Origin: a virus
DNA: 23,238 bases
Direction: 5' to 3' (one strand)
Virus record (IMG/VR): IMGVR_UViG_3300023174_000655
Location: 1 to 23,238 of that record
How positions within the stretch are numbered: position 1 is the first letter of the stretch; the number at the start of each line of letters is the position of its first letter. The position numbers were made by a program, and so were the translations under genes. Positions 8,202 to 23,238 of the stretch are shown here, one piece after another. The notes under the pieces are model-generated. The model saw nothing but the letters and a program-made list of their open reading frames with translations, was not told the origin of the DNA and made no database searches.

Positions 8202-8209
8202 TATTTATC
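8202..8209 (-). promoter_or_regulatory. Candidate late promoter for the MGRPL gene
   Basis: The minus strand reads GATAAATA, seven of eight bases of TATAAATA, 68 bases before the ATG. Its first bases overlap the TGA stop of the glycosyltransferase-like gene. It lies in the loop of an inverted repeat, CTAGACA (8192-8198) with TGTCTAG (8215-8221). Confidence 0.5.
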
Positions 8210-8888
8210 AATACTGTCTAGTTAGATGTTTGCCGTCTGTGTGATATATTGTGGGTGGGTGACCTAGTGGACCATACATAGCACCACGAATTGGGCTAGC
8301 CGTTAAATATTCTTCTAAACCATATGAACCACCAAATCTTACCCATTTGGTATGTTTTGTTGCTTCATCTAACCAACGTTGTCTATTAATGATATGAGGA
8401 TTATTACTAACACAGTCAGTCATACAAAAATCAAAAACACTTCCTTTGACTTCTACCACATTTAAATCCATGCCTCGAGATGCTATTTCATCATCTCGAT
8501 TGCCTTCTTCTTTTCTATTGAATCTCAAATGTAAAATATTATCCTTACGCATGCCATTTACAATTTGTAGCAATGTATGATTTATATTTTTAGCAAGAAA
8601 ATCCCAGTCATGCTCTAACATAAACATAAATTCAGCATTGCTATTTCTAGCAGCTAAATGATAGCCATGACTCATGCCACCAATCTCATGATTAACTATG
8701 GGAAATATTTTTTTTAAATTGTTAAGATATTCTTCTGATGCTTCCACATTAGGATTTCTATCACACCAAACTGTGGTTTTAACTTTAAATTTGAAAGTAT
8801 CCATAAATGACTTATAGGTATTTTCAATATGTGTAGTTGACGGTGCATGTACTGTGGAATTTGTAAAAATATGTAATTCTATTATCAT
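8208..8888 (-). CDS. Putative glycosyltransferase (GT-A-like)
   Basis: The product has 226 residues. It begins MIIELHIFTN, then TTVWCDRNPN near residues 38-47. Residues 85-97 read AEFMFMLEHDWDF, with D94-x-D96 after a hydrophobic strand, as in the metal-binding DxD of GT-A glycosyltransferases. Other polar clusters (HLRFNRKEEGNRDDE, WVRFGGSYGLEEYL) fit an acceptor site. It is short for a complete GT2 enzyme but in the range seen in phages. It lies just after the gp23 terminator. There is no ribosome site; instead AATAAATA ends five bases before the ATG, suggesting its own leaderless late transcript. It may modify virion proteins, but acceptor and sugar are unknown. The family call is moderate. 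Confidence 0.55.
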   Translation of the reverse strand: MIIELHIFTNSTVHAPSTTHIENTYKSFMDTFKFKVKTTVWCDRNPNVEASEEYLNNLKKIFPIVNHEIGGMSHGYHLAARNSNAEFMFMLEHDWDFLAKNINHTLLQIVNGMRKDNILHLRFNRKEEGNRDDEIASRGMDLNVVEVKGSVFDFCMTDCVSNNPHIINRQRWLDEATKHTKWVRFGGSYGLEEYLTASPIRGAMYGPLGHPPTIYHTDGKHLTRQY

Positions 8889-12919: not shown

Positions 12920-13507
12920 TTAACGTATTTTTTCCCAGTTGGACATTATATCCCTAAATTCATTAAAAAATATTCTTTTATAATTATCATAACGCCAAGA
13001 TGGATCGAAAAAAGTCTCCACATTGACTCTATAATATTTTACTGTGGGGTTGTCTTTTATTATTTTTTCAGTTTGTTTAAGCCAGTTACCATGATAGGTA
13101 GCTGGGTCTGAACTCTTTTTGTAATTGTTTGTATTGGCATAAACATTATTGAGTTTGCCTTTGAGCCCTTCGTAATCAAATCCAAAAATATAGACCTCAT
13201 TAGGTCTATGACTAGTAGCTAGATTTAATGCAGTCGGTCCACTACTCCAACCTAAATTAGGCTCAAAGTAATTGAATTTTTCATAATTTTTATAACTTGG
13301 GATATAATTGGTCCATACTTGATTAGTTAACTGATACTTACTTTCGTTTATCTCATTGACCATTTTACTATCTACAGCTACAAGATAATCTGGCCTGTAA
13401 TCCCTATAAACTGCATTACAGGCATAGATTAATCCATATGGTCTAACTTCATCAAATCCCATGTTAAGTCGTGTTCGACCGTTGCCAAACACAAAACTTC
13501 TTTTCAT
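12920..13507 (-). CDS. Sialyltransferase-like / DUF115-like putative glycosyltransferase
   Basis: The product has 195 residues. It begins with a hydrophobic strand and the GNG motif at residues 8-10 (SFVFGNGRTR), then an 'ACNAVYRD' segment. Residues 89-114 read SGPTALNLATS and EVYIFGFDYEG. This GNG ... SG-x-x-A ... I-F/L-G-F/I-D-x-x-G layout is shared by GT42 sialyltransferases such as Campylobacter CstII and by DUF115-type proteins. YHGNW at 138-142 may supply a His. The start overlaps the stop of the methyltransferase gene at ATGA, so the two are translationally coupled. It sits inside the capsid cassette, which suggests modification of a virion protein or of a host glycan. Donor sugar is unknown; fold-level call only. 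Confidence 0.55.
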   Translation of the reverse strand: MKRSFVFGNGRTRLNMGFDEVRPYGLIYACNAVYRDYRPDYLVAVDSKMVNEINESKYQLTNQVWTNYIPSYKNYEKFNYFEPNLGWSSGPTALNLATSHRPNEVYIFGFDYEGLKGKLNNVYANTNNYKKSSDPATYHGNWLKQTEKIIKDNPTVKYYRVNVETFFDPSWRYDNYKRIFFNEFRDIMSNWEKIR

Positions 13508-14103
13508 AAAGGTTTACGTCTGCACATCCAAACAACAGACTGAAATTCATCTTGCATATAAGGAACACAACGATTTCTATCCAATGCTTCCTTTACGTCT
13601 GCAAAAGTAATCTCACACCATAACCATTCATTAGGTGTAATATATTTTTCAAAATACTCTTTACTTTCACTATAGTCATGTGCCATGATAAAATCACCTG
13701 GCTTGAGCAAATCTGCTAGCAAATTGACTTCATTGATTTTATTACCACCATCACACATCAATACTGTGGTACCTGGTCTTTGAATATTATTTTTAATTTC
13801 ATCATAATTACTATCACGAATACTTTGATAATCATCATTAAATAAATTACAAATTCGCATGTTAATTCCAGCTTCAGTCAATTGTGCATATTGCCCTAAG
13901 ACATGAACATCATAACTAAAATAGGTAAACGGGTAATCTAACGCTTTTAAAATGTTATTTAAGGACATAGCTGTACCGCCTTGTCCTGTACCAATTTCAA
14001 CAATGGTTGCTGGTTTTACCTGTGCAAAAAACTTTTCAAAAACAGGTATAAAATTTCTATGCTGCTGGCTAATCATGCCATGTAAACTAAGATTCCAATC
14101 CAT
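13504..14103 (-). CDS. Class I SAM-dependent methyltransferase (cephalosporin-hydroxylase-like type)
   Basis: The product has 199 residues. TIVEIGTGQGGTAMSL at residues 33-48 is the SAM-binding motif I. YDVH at 64-67 is the acidic end of strand 2. TTVLMCDGGNKINEVNLL at 112-129 and KPGDFIMAHDY at 134-144 match the small methyltransferases often annotated as 'cephalosporin hydroxylase' or Methyltransf_24, which typically act on sugars or small molecules. The length is that of a single catalytic domain. AAGGA lies 6 bases before the ATG. The gene is paired by a 4-base overlap with the sialyltransferase-like gene, so the two probably act on the same glycan. It is inserted between the gp20-side small gene and the prohead core genes. 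The substrate is not known. Confidence 0.7.
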   Translation of the reverse strand: MDWNLSLHGMISQQHRNFIPVFEKFFAQVKPATIVEIGTGQGGTAMSLNNILKALDYPFTYFSYDVHVLGQYAQLTEAGINMRICNLFNDDYQSIRDSNYDEIKNNIQRPGTTVLMCDGGNKINEVNLLADLLKPGDFIMAHDYSESKEYFEKYITPNEWLWCEITFADVKEALDRNRCVPYMQDEFQSVVWMCRRKPL

Positions 14104-14376: not shown

Positions 14377-16102
14377 AAACTGGAGGTGCTGCTGCCGGGG
14401 CAGTTGCTCCCATGCCAGTATCAACTCCTGGGGGCATACCGCCAGCTGCCTGTTGCATATCTTCTGGGGCACTAGTGTCACTGTTTAATTCCAAATCACT
14501 GTCGATGCCAGCAGCACTAACACCTGCACTACGCAACTCACCACTGGCATCTGTACCAGTAATATTGCTCATGCCTTTTTCCTGCTTCCATAAGTTTTCA
14601 TTTTCTGCCATCTCTTCTTCACTAAGCCCTAAGAATCTTTTCAAAGCAAAACGCTTACTGATATAGGGAATAGCCTGTATAGTATTAAATGTATTAATTC
14701 TCTGTCCATCAACTTCAGATTGACGATAACTAGCAAAGTTTTGAGGTGGTTGAAAACGTATCTCAAACAAACTAGTATCAATATTGATACCTTTACTATA
14801 CAAATAACGTTTGAATTCCTGATCAAATGCATTGGTCAATAACGTCTGCAAACGTATACAATAATTATTAAAACGTAATTCTTGAATGTAAGCAGTGCCT
14901 ACTCTTCCGTCGTTGTATTGTGCCTGACTGTCGTCCGCACCAGTAGGTAAGTAACTGCTAGGAATCCTAAGAGCTCTAAAAAGTTTGTTCGTAAAGTATT
15001 TAAGGTCATCAATCTCACCTAAGTTTGTGCCACCAGCCAATGTGTCGACTTTACTGCCACGACCGCCTTCAGTCTGAGGGAAGAAATAATCTTCACTGAT
15101 ACTTAACGGATTATAGGCACTGTCAATAACGTTCATACCACCGCCACTTTGACTGGGGATACGACGTTGGTGTATCTCATTCTTAACACGTTCCACAAAG
15201 GCCATGGCCATGTGACTGGGCATGTTACCCACATCAATATAAAATATTCTACGCTCTGGTGCTCGTTGAATACGATAGATTAGAATAGCATCTTCTAATA
15301 ATTCTTTTTGCTTGTATACTTTGAACACTTGCTCTAACAAACTATTGCCAAATGGATAATTGTTGTCAAGACCTTCACTCAAACTTAAATGCACTACATG
15401 AGCAGCGTCAATAGCCATTTCATTTTCACCAATATGAAATCTATCTCCATACTGAGTGGGATACGCACCTGTGGCTCCTCTAGTTTGTCCGCCGCCTGCA
15501 ATATAATTACTGCCTCTATTATTAGTCTGTTGTGGACTGGTTTGAATCTGTGTGGCTACTAAATTTTGGAAATTAGGTGCTAGGTCACGGACTATATACT
15601 GTTCAGGTTTTTTACCTTCACTTTCGTTTACAATGACCTTGACTAATTTACTAGGATCTATATAAAACCACTTTTGTGTTTCTGGATCTCTAATAAAAAA
15701 TGCATCGCCATACTTAAAAGTATTACGTACTATACGAAAAAATCTTGTGTCAAATTGTTGTACTTTAAACCATTGCTGTACGTATTCTCTTAGTACTCGT
15801 ATCTCTGAATTAGTAGCTTTATCTTTAAAACTGAGATGAAAAGTTGTGTTGTTTTCTTTATTTTTCTGTGTGCAAAATTCTGCTAGAATATCCAATGCTG
15901 CATTGATTTCTGGATCCATATCCATAGTATCATATTGCATATAACGTTCTATTCTATTAGGACTGCCCACATAAATGTCTGGTAAATAGCTACTATAATT
16001 ACTACGTGCAGGACCAGCCTTACTGCCATTTCCTACAGGACTGTTATTACCAGAAAGATTACTGGAAGTAGGGGCAGGGGTAAAGTATCTACGCCAACTC
16101 AT
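14375..16102 (-). CDS. gp20: Portal vertex protein gp20
   Basis: The product has 575 residues (T4 gp20 has 524). It forms the dodecameric portal that starts head assembly, passes DNA and joins the tail. Hallmark portal segments are visible: RYMQYDTMDMDPEINAALDI (about 53-72), RIVRNTFKYGDAFF (about 122-135), EDAILIYRIQRAPERRIFYI (about 265-284) and YLPTGADDSQAQYNDGRVGT (about 385-404). The last two are the conserved regions used in gp20 diversity studies. The C-terminal 60 residues are Ala/Gly/Pro/Met-rich and probably disordered. The start overlaps the stop of the 1589-residue gene at TAATG, so translation is probably coupled. The identification is strong. Confidence 0.97.
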   Translation of the reverse strand: MSWRRYFTPAPTSSNLSGNNSPVGNGSKAGPARSNYSSYLPDIYVGSPNRIERYMQYDTMDMDPEINAALDILAEFCTQKNKENNTTFHLSFKDKATNSEIRVLREYVQQWFKVQQFDTRFFRIVRNTFKYGDAFFIRDPETQKWFYIDPSKLVKVIVNESEGKKPEQYIVRDLAPNFQNLVATQIQTSPQQTNNRGSNYIAGGGQTRGATGAYPTQYGDRFHIGENEMAIDAAHVVHLSLSEGLDNNYPFGNSLLEQVFKVYKQKELLEDAILIYRIQRAPERRIFYIDVGNMPSHMAMAFVERVKNEIHQRRIPSQSGGGMNVIDSAYNPLSISEDYFFPQTEGGRGSKVDTLAGGTNLGEIDDLKYFTNKLFRALRIPSSYLPTGADDSQAQYNDGRVGTAYIQELRFNNYCIRLQTLLTNAFDQEFKRYLYSKGINIDTSLFEIRFQPPQNFASYRQSEVDGQRINTFNTIQAIPYISKRFALKRFLGLSEEEMAENENLWKQEKGMSNITGTDASGELRSAGVSAAGIDSDLELNSDTSAPEDMQQAAGGMPPGVDTGMGATAPAAAPPV

Positions 16103-19100
16103 TAAGCCATCCCATGTAAGTTTCCACTAGCTGCTGATGCAACTGATTTAGTGGCTTTAATTTGATCTTTTATTAATGCACCATTTGTATTGTTCACTGC
16201 AATTAGTTTTTCCATAGCAGTATTTAATTTTTCTAAGGTTTTTACTACGTCGTCTAGGCTTTTTGCCTCAGCTTTATCACTAGATTTGCCACCAGTTTTA
16301 TCTTTTTCTTCTTGAGCAGTTTTAGCTGCTGCTTGCCTTTTAAGTTTGGCTGTTTCAGCATCGTCGACACTGGTATCTTCTTTGCCTTTGACCTTAGGTA
16401 ACGCTTTGTTATCTGCTTTAGGCTCAGCTAAAATTGGCATACCATTAGCACCAATTTTACTTACTTTACCAAAAGATATTTTAGACCTGTCAAGAGTATC
16501 AGGTTGCTCTTGTTTAATATCTTCTGTGGTTCTTGCTGCTGTATCTTGATCACTATACTTGGGTTCAGGAGCCATGTTCTGTAACATTTGCTCGCCAATA
16601 GCTTCATCTACTCCGCCAAATTCATCCATTACACTGGGTGGCTCTGGTAAGGATTTTTTTATATCGTCCATGATTTGATCTGTATTATCAGTAAAATCAG
16701 TACTGGAATCTGACAGACCCCCAATTAAATCCCCCATTGATTCGTCAACTACCTTGGCTAAATTTTCATTGGCATCACTTAGTTCTTGAGCAAGTATCTC
16801 ATATTGTTCACCTATGTCTTCCTCACTGGCGCCCATTAATAAATCATCTAGTTTTTGTTGTGCTTCTTTCTGTCTTGCTATGGCCTTATCTATGTTATCC
16901 TGTGCTTCTACTGCTTTCATTTCTCCATCAGTAGGTCCTGGTATAGAATCCTTTATATCAGCCATGATTTTTTCTGTATTGTCAGTAAAATCATCACTTG
17001 ATTCAGTTAATCCACCAACTAGATCACCAAATGATTCATCAACTACTTTGGCTAGATTTTCATTAGCCTCGCTTAGTTGCTGTGCATAGTACTCATACTG
17101 CTCACCTATATCTTCCTCACTAGCACCCATTAACAAATCGTTTAGTTTTTGTTGTGCTTCTTTTTGTCTTTCTATGGCCTTGTCTATATTATCTTGTGCT
17201 TCAGTAGACTTCATTGCTGCATCAGTAGGCCCTGGTATAGATTGTTTTATGTCAGCCATGATTTGATCTGTATTGTCAGTAAACCCAGCACTTGATTCAG
17301 TCATTCCACCAACTAGATCACTAAACGATTCATCAACTACTTTGGCCAAGTTCTCGTTAGCTTCTTTTAGTTCTTGAGCAAGTATCTCATATTGTTCATT
17401 TAAATCATCATCAGTGGCTTCATTAAACAGATCATTTAATTTTTGTTGTGCTTCTTTTTGCCTTGCTATGGCCTTGTCTATGTTATCTTGTGCAGCAACA
17501 GATTTCATGTCTGCATCACTAGCATCTGTACTTGGAACTACACTATCAATATCTGAACTAACTTGTTCACTATATTTGGGGCCAAGATCCATATTTCCCA
17601 ACATTTGGCCACCAATAGCTTCATCTACTCCACTAAACTCATCTGGTAACGCATTATCAATATCTGAACTAACCTGCGTTAAAGAATCACTATAATCGAT
17701 ACTTGAACTTTCCACAGTACCAATTAAGTCACTCATTGATTCGTCAACTACTTTGGCTAAATTTTCATTAGCATCACTTAGTTCTTGAGCAAGTATCTCA
17801 TATTGTTCATTTAAATCATCATCAGTGGCTTCATTAAACAGATCATTTAATTTTTGTTGTGCTTCTTTTTGTCTTGCTATGGCCTTGTCTATATTGTCCT
17901 GTGCAGTAACAGATTTCATGTCTGAATCACTAGCACCTGGCACTGTTTTGTTAATATCCTCACTGACATTGGCTAAATTATCACTTGAATACTCAACGGT
18001 ACCAATTAAGTCACTCATTGATTCGTCAACTACTTTGGTCAAGTTCTCGTTAGCTTCTTTTAGTTCTTGAGCATAAATTTCATATTGCTCACCAATATCC
18101 TCTTCACTGGCTCCCATTAGTAAATCATTTAACTTTTGCTGTGCTTCTTTTTGCCTTGCTATGGCCTTGTCTATATTGTCCTGTGCAGCAACAGATTTCA
18201 TATCTGAATCACTAGCACCTGGTAAAGTGCTATTAATATCCTCACTAACTTGCTCACTGTATTTGGGACCAAGATCCATGTTTTTCAACAGTTGCTCGCC
18301 AATAGCTTCATCCAATCCAGCAAACTCATTTACGGGGATAACATTTTTTATATCATTAGAAACTTTCTCAGTAGTTTGTTCTTTTTTAGATTCTTCTTTT
18401 TTAGGTTCTTCTTTTTTAGGCTCTTCTTTTTTAATTCTAGGAATTTCAATCTTAGCCCCAGCAAAAATCTTATTTGGATCTTTGATCTGTGGGTTAGCTT
18501 TCATTATGTCCTCAATGGACACCCCTGCTGCTTTGGCAATTTTAGTTAAATTGTCGCCAGCTTTAATAGTGTAAGCCTCTAACTTTTTACTATCAGTGTC
18601 TGCAGAATCTTTTTTAACTGCTACAGCAACTTCTTTATTTGACTGAATAGTAGCAGCAGCTATTTTTTCCTGTGCTTCCTTTGAAAGCTCTTTAGCATTT
18701 AAAAAATGCTCTTTAAATAATTGTCCTAACCCAGCGGCTTCAGCTTTTTGATACTCCTCTGCAATTTTCTTTTTATATTCAGCAGCATCCTTCTCGCTCA
18801 TATTACGAGTGTTTAATAACATTTTTTCTTGAAATGCTGTATCAGCTTGTGTTTTGTTATCTTCCTTTTTAGCCGCTATTGGTGCTGCTGTTGGTGCTGC
18901 TGTTGGCTGTGATACTTTAGGCTCTGATTTTGTTTCTGCTGGCTTTGCTGTTGGAGCAGGCTGAGTTTGAACTGGTGTAAGTTTTTTTAAGTCTGTAATT
19001 TCTTTTGGCCAATTAGTAACTTCTACTTTACTAACTGTGGTTTTAATGTCTGTGAGTATTTTATTAATATCAATACCAGGCATTTTGGCTGAATCTGCTT

Positions 19101-20871
19101 TAGGCATGTTTTTAACAGCATCACCAAATCCACCAGTTATGCCTTTGATATCAATCTTACCTGCATCTGCTTTAGGCATGTTTTTAACAGCATCACCAAA
19201 TCCACCAGTCATACCTTTGATATCTAATTTAGAATTATCTGATAATTGTTGAGCCAATTTCTTAGTAGAATCAGGATCTAACACAGTTTCATCTTTGTGA
19301 ATTTTAACTAGTGCATCCATAGGCTCTATTGGACTGCCAGTTTTTTCTAAAGTTCCGCCTTCTCTAGTTCCAGGTGGCTTTTCATTTGAATTTGGCGCAG
19401 CAACCCTATTAACAAATTTAGCAACATTGCCAGCACCATATGTTGGTAATGCTAATGGATTTTCTTTAGCTACTTGCTCTGGTGATTTGCCTTCCCTAGC
19501 TGCCTTAAATCCTTCCTTGCCTGCGTTCTCCCCAGCAGTAATCATTTTTTTAGCTGCACCACTTGCGCCAAGAACGTTTTCAGCTAATGATTTTAATGCA
19601 GGACTAACTTCTTTAACCAAAGGTTGAACAAGTCCACTCATCATTGCTGCATTTACATCCTTCATTCTTTGATCAAAATTCACAACTGCTTTGGTTGCTC
19701 CATCAGAAGCCTTTTGTTCTTCTTTGGCGTTATCTTCATATCTTTTTCTGGCTTCTTCAGTGGTCACTGGTCTACCAAGCTCTTCTTCCATTTGTTTTCT
19801 AGTTGCTTCAACTCCTTTGGATAAAGCTTCTGTGTCTTTGGATGTTTGAGCCACTGCTCTGCCAAAATCTCCAGTTACGCCAGATAATACTCTCATTTGT
19901 AAATGAGCAGAATCTTTACTGTTTTTGGCAGCTTCTTCCTGTGCTTCAGCAGCTTTTTGATCAGCTTCTTTAAATCTACCTGCTCTCGCAAGGTTGGCCT
20001 GTTCTACTGTGGCCAAACCTTGTTTCCCACTGGCTGCCAATTGCATAGCCGCTTCTTTGGACTGCACAGTTCCATATAAGAACTGCTCTTTGAACATCTG
20101 GCCCTGACCCAAAGCCTCTGCTTTGGCATACTGTTCTGCCATTTTTTTCTTATATTCAGCAGCTTCTTTATCACTCATGCCCTGAGTTTGTAGGGCTATC
20201 TTAGCTTGATAGGCCTGATCAGCTTGTAACTTTTTAGCAGACTCCATCTGCTCTTCACGACTTTTTCCAGTCATCTTGGCCATTAAATCCATTTCTGTTG
20301 CTAATTCCATAGCACCTTTAATGGCCATTTCATCTTTTTCCTTGCCAGCTCGCATACTGTTACCAATTGCGCTCATTTGTAATGCTAATATCTCATTAAG
20401 ATCCTTATTAGCATAACCCATATTTCTTAATTGGTCTACAGCTCCAGCACTTTCATCATACATTAACTTGCTGGCTCTGGCAAATTCTTTAGCACCTTTG
20501 TCGATGCTTCCGCCCCATCCAGCTAGACTAGCCCTATTTTGTGTGACAATTTCATTAAACTCACCTAGGCTAATTCTAGCACCTTTTGCAGCGGCCTGCA
20601 TGTCTACTATGCTGTTGCCAAAACTTATACCAGTTTTACTGATATTTTGCCATGTCTCCATGCCAGAAGCAATATCTCGACTTAGATCTATAAAAGCCTT
20701 TGCAGCATTGCCCATGGGGCCAGGCAATCTAGTCAAATAGCCTTCAAAAGCAGTAAGTGCAGCATTAGATGATTTTGTGTCAATTGGTCCGCTGCCAGTA
20801 TTACGGCTTCCGCCAATAGCTTTTGCTAGTCGTTGTATGCTTTCATCTGATAAATTGACACTGTCAGCCAT
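16102..20871 (-). CDS. Giant repeat protein with tape-measure character and internal LysM domain
   Basis: The product has 1589 residues. The N-terminal 480 residues are helical with tape-measure-like stretches (KTGISFGNSIVDMQAAAKG, SLGEFNEIVTQNRASLAGWG). KIHKDETVLDPDSTKKL near residue 535 resembles a motif common in tape-measure and tail proteins. Two 24-residue repeats follow (GGFGDAVKNMPKAD). A LysM domain lies at about 764-811 (YTIKAGDNLTKIAKAAGVS ... NKIFAGAKIEIP), then a KKEEP tract. Five long repeats cover about 887-1390, and the C-terminus is charged and helical. LysM implies peptidoglycan binding, so the protein may act at the cell wall during DNA entry. It overlaps gp20 and the upstream gene at TAATG junctions. 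T4 encodes its tape measure (gp29, 590 residues) elsewhere, so tape measure is an inference; an internal or tail-tip structural protein is the alternative. Confidence 0.6.
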   Translation of the reverse strand: MADSVNLSDESIQRLAKAIGGSRNTGSGPIDTKSSNAALTAFEGYLTRLPGPMGNAAKAFIDLSRDIASGMETWQNISKTGISFGNSIVDMQAAAKGARISLGEFNEIVTQNRASLAGWGGSIDKGAKEFARASKLMYDESAGAVDQLRNMGYANKDLNEILALQMSAIGNSMRAGKEKDEMAIKGAMELATEMDLMAKMTGKSREEQMESAKKLQADQAYQAKIALQTQGMSDKEAAEYKKKMAEQYAKAEALGQGQMFKEQFLYGTVQSKEAAMQLAASGKQGLATVEQANLARAGRFKEADQKAAEAQEEAAKNSKDSAHLQMRVLSGVTGDFGRAVAQTSKDTEALSKGVEATRKQMEEELGRPVTTEEARKRYEDNAKEEQKASDGATKAVVNFDQRMKDVNAAMMSGLVQPLVKEVSPALKSLAENVLGASGAAKKMITAGENAGKEGFKAAREGKSPEQVAKENPLALPTYGAGNVAKFVNRVAAPNSNEKPPGTREGGTLEKTGSPIEPMDALVKIHKDETVLDPDSTKKLAQQLSDNSKLDIKGMTGGFGDAVKNMPKADAGKIDIKGITGGFGDAVKNMPKADSAKMPGIDINKILTDIKTTVSKVEVTNWPKEITDLKKLTPVQTQPAPTAKPAETKSEPKVSQPTAAPTAAPIAAKKEDNKTQADTAFQEKMLLNTRNMSEKDAAEYKKKIAEEYQKAEAAGLGQLFKEHFLNAKELSKEAQEKIAAATIQSNKEVAVAVKKDSADTDSKKLEAYTIKAGDNLTKIAKAAGVSIEDIMKANPQIKDPNKIFAGAKIEIPRIKKEEPKKEEPKKEESKKEQTTEKVSNDIKNVIPVNEFAGLDEAIGEQLLKNMDLGPKYSEQVSEDINSTLPGASDSDMKSVAAQDNIDKAIARQKEAQQKLNDLLMGASEEDIGEQYEIYAQELKEANENLTKVVDESMSDLIGTVEYSSDNLANVSEDINKTVPGASDSDMKSVTAQDNIDKAIARQKEAQQKLNDLFNEATDDDLNEQYEILAQELSDANENLAKVVDESMSDLIGTVESSSIDYSDSLTQVSSDIDNALPDEFSGVDEAIGGQMLGNMDLGPKYSEQVSSDIDSVVPSTDASDADMKSVAAQDNIDKAIARQKEAQQKLNDLFNEATDDDLNEQYEILAQELKEANENLAKVVDESFSDLVGGMTESSAGFTDNTDQIMADIKQSIPGPTDAAMKSTEAQDNIDKAIERQKEAQQKLNDLLMGASEEDIGEQYEYYAQQLSEANENLAKVVDESFGDLVGGLTESSDDFTDNTEKIMADIKDSIPGPTDGEMKAVEAQDNIDKAIARQKEAQQKLDDLLMGASEEDIGEQYEILAQELSDANENLAKVVDESMGDLIGGLSDSSTDFTDNTDQIMDDIKKSLPEPPSVMDEFGGVDEAIGEQMLQNMAPEPKYSDQDTAARTTEDIKQEQPDTLDRSKISFGKVSKIGANGMPILAEPKADNKALPKVKGKEDTSVDDAETAKLKRQAAAKTAQEEKDKTGGKSSDKAEAKSLDDVVKTLEKLNTAMEKLIAVNNTNGALIKDQIKATKSVASAASGNLHGMA
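16700..18210 (-). repeat. Five coding repeats of about 75-80 residues in the giant protein
   Basis: Copies lie near 17983-18209, 17703-17929, 17287-17515, 16991-17224 and 16700-16933. Each encodes a unit with AQDNIDKAIARQKEAQQKL, E-Q-Y-E, ANENLAKVVDES and a D-L-I/V-G end, with linkers ending in IPGPTD or LPGASD. A second element, DEAIGEQML ... PKYS, occurs three times between or beside them. Copies two and three share 94 identical bases (17367-17460 and 17778-17871). Confidence 0.85.
18440..18580 (-). other. LysM domain coding segment within the giant protein
   Basis: The segment encodes YTIKAGDNLTKIAKAAGVS, then IEDIMKANPQI and NKIFAGAKIEIP, the usual LysM pattern (Y-x-V/I-x-x-G-D-x-L-x-x-I-A ... 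N ... I-x-x-G-x-x-I-x-I-P). LysM domains bind peptidoglycan or chitin. It is followed at 18370-18430 by a Lys-Lys-Glu-Glu-Pro tract, probably a flexible linker. Confidence 0.85.
19093..19209 (-). repeat. Tandem 72-base repeat in the giant protein
   Basis: Forty-five bases at 19093-19137 recur exactly at 19165-19209, a 72-base period (24 codons). Each encodes GGFGDAVKNMPKAD. Exact identity points to a recent duplication. Confidence 0.85.
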
Positions 20872-21919: not shown

Positions 21920-21943
21920 TTCAAAATTATTGGAGCTGCCACC

Positions 21944-22762
21944 ATGAACAACCCTCTGCAAAAATATTTCAGACAACCTAAAATCTTTATTAACTTACCT
22001 AGTAAAGGACTTTATTACGAACCAGGAACTTTGATAGGAGATCATAGTAATTTTCCCATATTGGCCATGACTGGAATTGACGAAATATTAGTTAAAACTC
22101 CAGATGCATTGTTTAACGGAGAATCCACTATTAGAATTATAGAAAGTTGCTGTCCCTATATTAAGGACGCCAAAAATATGCCAGTCATTGACGTTGATTC
22201 TATTTTAGCTGGTATTAAGATTGCCACATTTGGCAATACTGCTACAGTAACTAAGACTTGCACTAATTGTGGCACTGAAAATGATTATGATTTACCCTTG
22301 AGTAATATTATTGATTATTTTGGCAGTTTAAAATTCAGTAATAAAATTACCATTGAAGATAATTTAGAAATTGTTATCAGACCATTAAAATATAGTGAAA
22401 TGAGTTATTTTAGTATGGAAAATTTCAAACTTCAAAAAATTCTAAATCAAACAGTTGAAATGAGTGATGAAGATAAAAAATCTAAAATTAATGAAATTTA
22501 TATTAAACTCAGTGAATTACAATTGGAATTATTTTTATTTGCAGTTGAGAGTGTTATTATAGACGATGTGTCAGTTACTGAAAAAGAATACATTGAAGAA
22601 TGGTTGAAAAATGTTGAAAGATCAGTGTTCAGTAATATCAAAAAGAAAATAGAAGAAAATAAAAATCTATGGGAAATTCCAGATACCCCTGTAGTATGCG
22701 CAGAATGTGGTACTGAAAACAAAGTCCAACTAAGTTTGGATCAATCAAGTTTTTTCGGATAA
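21944..22762 (+). CDS. gp26: Baseplate hub protein gp26-like (possible tail-assembly chaperone short form)
   Basis: The product has 272 residues, starting MNNPLQKYFRQPKIFINLPS, which I recognise from gp26-type baseplate hub proteins of marine T4-like phages (T4_baseplate family). Other family-like parts are LAMTGIDEILVKTPDALFNG (about 40-59) and the ESCCPYIKD segment. Two CxxCGTEN motifs (C106/C109 and C252/C255) could together bind one zinc ion. The second half is a helical domain (about 150-245). GGAG lies 8 bases before the ATG, under an exact TATAAATA promoter. The last codons are AGT TTT TTC GGA TAA, and the heptamer T TTT TTC allows -1 slippage into the next frame. In T4, gp26 is listed as a hub assembly protein; a chaperone role is my inference. 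Confidence 0.8.
   Translation: MNNPLQKYFRQPKIFINLPSKGLYYEPGTLIGDHSNFPILAMTGIDEILVKTPDALFNGESTIRIIESCCPYIKDAKNMPVIDVDSILAGIKIATFGNTATVTKTCTNCGTENDYDLPLSNIIDYFGSLKFSNKITIEDNLEIVIRPLKYSEMSYFSMENFKLQKILNQTVEMSDEDKKSKINEIYIKLSELQLELFLFAVESVIIDDVSVTEKEYIEEWLKNVERSVFSNIKKKIEENKNLWEIPDTPVVCAECGTENKVQLSLDQSSFFG
22750..22756 (+). promoter_or_regulatory. Slippery heptamer T TTT TTC for -1 frameshifting
   Basis: In the gp26-like frame the codons are TTT (22751-22753) and TTC (22754-22756), preceded by T at 22750. This is an exact X XXY YYZ slippery site. It lies two codons before the stop at 22760-22762. The -1 frame continues CGG ATA AAG and stays open to 22989. No strong downstream hairpin or pseudoknot is obvious by eye. 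P2 is known to frameshift at the similar T6G in its E/E' tail genes. Confidence 0.7.
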
Positions 22763-22989
22763 AGCTCCTATATTCCTCAAACTCTGACATTGAAGACTAT
22801 ATTAAAGACTTAGAAATTCAAGTCTTAGAGTTCAAAGAGGAATTATATAAAATCTCATGGTACATGAGAGGAGGAGTCACAGCAAATGATTTGCTATACC
22901 TTTATAGCTATGAAGATAGAAAGATAATGTATAAGATTATTAAAGATAATATTGAAACAACTAACAAAACTGGAATGCCATTAATTTAA
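22756..22989 (+). CDS. Start-less -1 frame extension of the gp26-like gene (gp51-like position)
   Basis: Seventy-seven codons follow the slippery site in the -1 frame: FFRIKLLYSSNSDIEDYI, then ISWYMRGGVTANDLLYLYSY, and the end TNKTGMPLI. The 'WYMRGG' helix and the T-x-K-T-G-M-P end are features I recall from the small protein annotated after gp26 in marine T4-like phages, often as gp51 (hub assembly catalyst). The frame is open from 22717 but has no ATG, GTG or TTG until an ATG at 22864, which would leave only 41 residues and cut the conserved part. Frameshifting would give a fusion of 348 residues. Independent initiation at ATA or another rare start is the alternative. The coding nature looks good; gp51 homology is uncertain. 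Confidence 0.7.
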   Translation, partial: RIKLLYSSNSDIEDYIKDLEIQVLEFKEELYKISWYMRGGVTANDLLYLYSYEDRKIMYKIIKDNIETTNKTGMPLI

Positions 22990-22995
22990 TATTTG

Positions 22996-23020
22996 AGAGT
23001 GAGCAAGCTCACTCTGTTTT
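22996..23020 (+). terminator. Intrinsic terminator after the gp26-like operon
   Basis: AGAGTGAG, the loop CAAG and CTCACTCT form an 8-bp perfect stem followed by GTTTT, 6 bases after the end of the -1 frame ORF. It is the first of three hairpins in a row. Confidence 0.8.
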
Positions 23021-23045
23021 AAGACTCACGTCTTAAAACATTTTT
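23016..23045. terminator. Second terminator-like hairpin
   Basis: GTTTTAAGAC, the loop TCAC and GTCTTAAAAC form a perfect 10-bp stem followed by ATTTTT. With its A-run upstream the hairpin can also act on the minus strand. It abuts the first hairpin and shares its T run. Confidence 0.65.
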
Positions 23046-23062
23046 CTTCAGCGAAGCTTTTT
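23046..23062 (+). terminator. Third small terminator-like hairpin
   Basis: CTTC, the loop AGC and GAAG form a short stem followed by CTTTTT. It is weaker than the two before it, but the T-run placement is right. Confidence 0.4.
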
Positions 23063-23089
23063 AATATTATGCAGATTGTGTGGACGTAC

Positions 23090-23109
23090 TTCTCCCGTTG
23101 CCGGGAGAA
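23090..23109. other. GC-rich hairpin in the gene-free right end
   Basis: TTCTCCCG, the loop TTGC and CGGGAGAA form a perfect 8-bp stem without a following T run. It lies in 23066-23238, a stretch visibly richer in GC than the neighbouring genes. That stretch holds no convincing gene or tRNA, but has further pairing arms (GGGC with GCCC, GAGG with CCTC, ACTATAT with ATATAGT). Confidence 0.5.
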
Positions 23110-23238
23110 CGAAAGACATTATGCGAGTTGCTTAGTCCGATACTATATTAGGGCATTACAGAGGCGGTCATCCTGTACCTCGAGCCCAGTCTTCTATACG
23201 ACGGGAAATAATTAAACAAATATAGTCTTGCCTAACTA

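Follow-up and report, generated by a model that had tools for sequence, protein, structure and literature searches.

Leiman et al. (2010, PMC3004832) count gp26 and gp51 of phage T4 among the chaperones of hub assembly and state that the particle does not contain gp51. Atkins et al. (2016) describe wide conservation of the G-T frameshift, with T4 as the exception. The chaperone genes of T4-like phages were identified by Vladimirov, Gautam & Davidson (2022, Virology 566:9-15), whose results we cite as given in PMC10885494 and PMC12846349. According to the PRFect paper (PMC10885494), some T4-like phages have both a short gene and a longer one for the fusion, and the paper on phage Adele (PMC12846349) attributes to the same study poly-T -1 signals in the TAC-N genes of T4-like phages. 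The principle is already published, since both papers report it from Vladimirov et al. (2022).

Here, we describe a gene of this kind in a 23,238-nucleotide stretch of viral DNA (IMG/VR record IMGVR_UViG_3300023174_000655, positions 1 to 23,238), which we call the window. We estimate a probability of about 0.88 that positions 21944-22989 constitute a T4-superfamily tail-assembly chaperone gene, expressed in two forms by a -1 frameshift with the aid of downstream RNA. This estimate is founded on the slippery site and its conservation, selection for coding in the -1 frame, the downstream RNA structure, and the match of T4 gp26 and gp51 to the two predicted products of the relatives. The finding is real in that many T4-related phages have retained this signal. 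Our additions are the extent of the conservation, the RNA structure, and the metagenomic lineage of the window. This lineage and the jumbo phages may lie outside the coverage of Vladimirov et al. (2022), as far as that study is represented in the two papers citing it.

Gene layout and slippery site

The features of the locus and of its neighbors are listed in Table 1. The gp26-like protein matches PF12322 over residues 53-271 (E=3.9e-15; 56.6 bits, above the curated cut-off of 24.5) and the baseplate hub family phrog_150 (E=3.8e-20), and has relatives of 44-83% identity on viral contigs. The zero frame ends in AGT TTT TTC GGA TAA, so that a single sense codon, GGA, separates the heptamer from the stop at 22760-22762. 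The position of T TTT TTC, in phase near the gp26-like stop, is as given in a preliminary description of this DNA. A -1 slip would give the reading TTT TTT CGG ATA AAG (SFFRIK), and the -1 frame, FRIKLLYSSNSDIEDYIKDLE..., runs up to the TAA at 22987-22989, 77 codons beyond the second phenylalanine. The preliminary description had also noted that this frame is open for 77 codons and has no ATG, GTG, or TTG near its beginning, which we confirmed: the earliest such codon is an ATG 104 nt beyond the gp26-like stop, at about codon 37. The 78-residue extension gave no match in Pfam and PHROG scans, and the window gave none in an Rfam scan. Relatives of the extension are present in viral contigs and in phages Atu_ph07 and Phosso.

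Table 1. Coordinates of the candidate chaperone gene, its predicted expression signals, and neighboring genes in the window
Feature	Position	Strand	Evidence
1589-aa repeat-rich LysM protein	16102..20871	-	LysM PF01476, E=2e-12
Divergent neighbor, 327 aa	20871..21854	-	no significant Pfam/PHROG match, no phage match
Shine-Dalgarno-like GGAG, 8 nt 5' of the ATG at 21944	21932..21935	+	read from sequence
gp26-like ORF, putative short form (TAC-N), 272 aa	21944..22762	+	PF12322/phrog_150; two CxxC pairs
Slippery heptamer T TTT TTC	22750..22756	+	in phase; invariant among sampled relatives
-1 frame extension, 77 codons and stop; putative C-terminal part of the long form (TAC-NC), gp51 position	22756..22989	+	open frame
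Predicted long-range stem-loop, candidate stimulator, 12 nt 3' of the heptamer	22769..22847	+	MFE -21.1 kcal/mol, z -1.89
Intrinsic-terminator-like hairpin and T run, 3' of the gene	23015..23040	+	11-bp stem followed by TTTTT

In the proposed mechanism, most ribosomes would translate the gp26-like frame, stop at 22760, and release a 272-residue short form. Some ribosomes, in which tRNA-Phe occupies both the P site and the A site while paired to T TTT TTC (22750-22756), would slip back by one base and re-pair with TTT TTT, aided by the downstream RNA structure. They would read 77 codons more and produce a 348-residue long form, with the extension at the place of T4 gp51. By analogy with lambda G/GT, the N-terminal part shared by both forms may coat the tape-measure protein, and the additional C-terminal part of the long form may recruit tail-tube or hub components. 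The occurrence of the slip, its rate, and the chaperone role of the products are what we infer from the sequences.

The window itself provides weak evidence for the heptamer, because AT-rich DNA such as this contains TTTTTTC often, with 15 copies in the window against an expectation of about 10. At the contig end, positions 23000-23238 appear to be non-coding and contain several inverted repeats after the terminator (e.g. TTCTCCC GTTGCC GGGAGAA); no Rfam match and no tRNA gene were found in this segment. Elsewhere on the minus strand, a 636-residue protein encoded at 938-2848 contains several degenerate repeats of the type NNNLDVVGDVNIDGGDLTT, and genes at 8208-8888, 12920-13507, and 13504-14103, located among structural genes, resemble by eye those of a glycosyltransferase, a sugar- or glycan-related protein, and a methyltransferase.

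Conservation of the heptamer and of the -1 frame

Two scans of IMG/VR, based on a profile or a protein, each yielded at least 560 confirmed relatives, from which the best 80 per scan were sampled; the E-values of these searches are relative to the candidates only. Removal of duplicates left 117 distinct loci, 60 from the window's group and 57 of the cyanophage type. The sampled loci, being the nearest 80 of each scan, are mutually related and not phylogenetically independent, and the heptamer counts are therefore not independent trials.

Just 5' of the stop, an in-phase TTTTTTC is found in 60/60 loci belonging to the window's group and in 57/57 cyanophage-type loci (best 80 of at least 560 in each scan). 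Conservation of the heptamer across relatives was the check that the preliminary description had proposed, and it holds in 117/117 distinct loci of this sample. Other Phe-Phe sites of the same loci are encoded as T TTT TTC in 7/99 and 6/143 cases (4-7%). At the level of sequence comparison, the conservation of the heptamer is far beyond chance and constitutes strong evidence.

In the best-80 sample of the window's group, 58 loci are untruncated, and each of them has an extension of exactly 77 codons. Among relatives in this group, its substitutions are distributed over the three codon positions as 1765, 843, and 3480, and its single changes comprise 2021 synonymous versus 896 nonsynonymous ones. 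This pattern of substitution is that of a protein-coding -1 frame, open through the junction.

The in-phase TTTTTTC is also present in isolated phages, whose hosts include Vibrio, Klebsiella, Salmonella, Agrobacterium, and cyanobacteria: Agrobacterium phage Atu_ph07, Sinorhizobium phage Phosso, Klebsiella phage RaK2, Salmonella phage Munch, Vibrio phage 2.275.O, KVP40, P-SSM2, S-PM2, syn9, and Aeh1. Phages HTVC008M, Cr30, and phiM12 have the variant TTTTTTT at the site. Among the isolates compared, the zero-frame stop lies at variable distances of 7 to 40 nt past the start of the heptamer, and the start of the -1 frame is fixed. Together, these data indicate that the locus is very probably a single gene producing two forms by a -1 slip at TTTTTTC.

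The second frame could instead be a gene of its own that ribosomes enter by re-initiation (translational coupling) once they have reached the gp26-like stop, as implied by records that annotate a 'gp51'. Separate gp51 coding sequences are annotated in P-SSM2, S-PM2, and KVP40, the junction in KVP40 reads TAATG, and an ATG or GTG is located one to three codons past the heptamer in all 57 cyanophage-type loci of the best-80 sample. However, in the window's group 35 of the 60 loci (best-80 sample) have no start codon in the first 15 codons of the extension, and syn9 has none near the junction. The lack of a start codon, which the preliminary description had named as support if seen in relatives, is accordingly found in most of the window's group and in syn9, but not in the sampled cyanophage-type loci. 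Furthermore, homology reaches 5' of any start codon, up to the FFR junction, and re-initiation leaves the invariant in-phase heptamer unexplained. We consider re-initiation very improbable.

Existing records treat the extension in different ways. In Munch (locus L044, 1558-1716) and Atu_ph07 (L041, 1612-1734), it is annotated as a short hypothetical gene with an internal start codon, and in RaK2 (L043) it is absent from the annotation. In the records of RaK2 and Atu_ph07, the extension is missing or cut short. The records of cyanophages, of pelagiphage HTVC008M, and of KVP40 present 'gp51' as a protein by itself, whereas our data favor a frameshift fusion, which would correct how this gene pair is annotated in many phages. 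Rhodothermus phage RM378 (L067) has a single PF12322 gene, the end of which contains a run of seven T (TCC TTT TTT TGG ... TGA). A plausible C-terminal frame is found there in +1 (or -2), not -1, which suggests a different direction of shift.

Downstream RNA and possible slippage by the polymerase

The RNA downstream of the heptamer in the window is weakly structured and suggestive of a stimulatory element, with a z-score of -1.89 over 109 nt (-21.1 kcal/mol) and -0.31 over 80 nt. Averaged over the window's group, the 80 nt 3' of the heptamer have a z-score of -2.10, versus -0.65 to 0.04 in controls (p ~3e-16). The mean for the cyanophage group is -2.3, compared with -2.1 for the window's group and values around 0 for most control stretches. 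Folding predictions of this kind are consistent with a stimulatory element in both groups as wholes and remain suggestive for the window alone.

The base-pairing partners are lineage-specific and differ among subgroups, and RNAalifold found no structure common to all 61 sequences of the window's group. A single stem, GGCTTCT/AGAAGCC, was considered and rejected: it occurs in only some of the group's loci, where RLL and EAK codons overlap with it. Therefore, we claim downstream structure in general and no particular stem.

No clear Shine-Dalgarno element was found 5' of the heptamer in the window's group. In cyanophages, GGAGGG is positioned about 9 nt 5' of the heptamer (mean anti-Shine-Dalgarno duplex energy -8.8 versus -5.7 kcal/mol in shuffles), and a hairpin begins about 6 nt 3' of it (consensus -5.7 versus -1.3 +/- 1.2 for shuffled columns). 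The cyanophage relatives share this three-part layout of GGAGGG, heptamer, and hairpin with Escherichia coli dnaX, where, however, the slip site is A AAA AAG instead of T TTT TTC; the window's own group differs from dnaX also in having no clear upstream Shine-Dalgarno element. The layout further weakens the case for re-initiation, as the cyanophage ATG lies inside the conserved downstream hairpin, and the heptamer is preceded by GGAGGG as in dnaX. The -1 frameshift put forward in the preliminary description held in every comparative test tried, namely those of the invariant heptamer, of coding selection in the -1 frame, of the absence of a usable start codon in most of the window's group, and of structured downstream RNA.

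If the RNA polymerase of the phage or of the host slipped at the run of T, mixed mRNAs would arise and give both products from ribosomes that do not slip. Poly-T runs can cause such slippage, and HTVC008M, Cr30, and phiM12 have 7-8 T at the site. In contrast, the window and all 117 sampled loci have only 6 T, which is short for polymerase slippage, and a ribosomal frameshift fits the X XXY YYZ phase, the invariant C, and the downstream RNA structure. We regard polymerase slippage as very improbable. A homopolymer run is prone to errors in metagenome assemblies. A sequencing error or a recent frameshift mutation splitting one gene is refuted by the comparative data, since independent assemblies and many isolates from different laboratories share the same break and heptamer.

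gp26 and gp51 as probable short and long forms of one chaperone

T4 gp26 and gp51 are both members of PF12322/phrog_150. Virtual frameshift products of eight T4-like phages were compared by hhalign with the T4-type proteins. The alignment with gp51 is end to end and includes the junction (9e-20; P-SSM2 product residues 12-292), and that of gp26 with the short product extends up to the junction (4.9e-19). The number of PF12322 copies differs correspondingly: each heptamer-bearing isolate searched has one, and T4, RB49, RB43, Acinetobacter phage 133 (Acj133), and Campylobacter phage CP220 have two such genes and no heptamer. In the two-gene phages of the Straboviridae, the pair consists of a short gp26 and a long gp51, of which gp51 matches the predicted frameshift product over its entire length. 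A search for a PF12322-type gene in S-TIM5 gave no match. Because of the split in copy number and the end-to-end match of gp51, gp26 most likely corresponds to the short form, and gp51 to the long form, of a single tail-assembly chaperone. The preliminary description had suggested this relationship, and the shared families and the gp51 alignment support it. The paralogy of the T4 proteins is explained in this way, as they resemble the two forms made elsewhere from one frameshifted gene.

The preliminary description called the second frame 'gp51-like', which is appropriate in position and architecture, but not in sequence. The window's extension of 78 residues has no match to phrog_634, and its direct comparison with gp51 of T4 and cyanophages is not significant. 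The label rests on position and architecture, because the 77 residues lack a direct gp51 match. A bridge that includes weak links connects the window to RaK2/Munch (1.5e-6), RaK2/Munch to cyanophages (0.011), and cyanophages to T4 gp51 (8e-7).

We consider it somewhat probable that the ancestral state of the T4 superfamily, including the jumbo phages, was a single PF12322 gene frameshifted at T TTT TTY. T4 genes 26 and 51 would then be replacements by duplication that arose at least twice, in the T-even-like Straboviridae and in CP220, with KVP40 and Aeh1, members of the same family as the former, keeping the frameshift. In that case, T4 gp51 would exert its catalytic role as the minor, long form of the chaperone. 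In CP220 (L251, L255), the two PF12322 copies are about 9 kb apart, and one of them, of 244 residues, has a gp51-type motif at its end; with no slippery site, this phage possibly replaced the frameshift by two genes independently.

In P-SSM2, KVP40, and HTVC008M, the pair is positioned between a 5' gene of the tail-tube family and a long protein, as in the lambda order V-G-T-H, and in HTVC008M an annotated tape measure follows 3' of the pair. In the window, the gp26-like gene is divergent from its 1589-residue neighbor, and none of the proteins of the window that were profiled was recognized as a tail-tube protein. The preliminary description regarded the 1589-residue protein as tape-measure-like; however, it has no recognizable tape-measure homology. 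It gave no match to tape-measure profiles, and its first 500 residues gave none in tblastn against phage records, so that Pfam, PHROG, and phage tblastn leave this identity unsupported. The protein contains repeated stretches of about 70 residues and four DUF6553 matches.

The structure of the short form was predicted with a pLDDT of 86.9. A Foldseek search of the PDB gave chance matches only, none at E<=0.001, and among predicted viral structures the short form matches T4-type baseplate hub assembly proteins. The fold does not support the chaperone role, since no solved structure resembles the short form.

The chaperone genes of lambda (G/GT) and P2 (E/E') resemble the locus in having a -1 frameshift near the end of the first open reading frame, short and long forms, and, in relatives of the window's gene, a position beside the tube and tape-measure genes. 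The heptamer of P2 E/E' is similar to TTTTTTC. Unlike the lambda and P2 chaperones, to which Pfam, PHROG, and Foldseek found no similarity in sequence or solved structure, the short form predicted here is larger and has two CxxC pairs. The T4-like chaperones of Vladimirov et al. (2022), as described in the papers citing that study, belong to the same family PF12322 and follow the same short/long logic, whereas T4, RB49, RB43, and Acj133 use two genes in place of the frameshift. The TAC locus of Vandenendeviridae and Andersonviridae, described for phage Adele (PMC12846349), is found in different phage families, yet it similarly has a conserved poly-T (GTTTTT) -1 site and an extension that was earlier annotated as a separate hypothetical gene.
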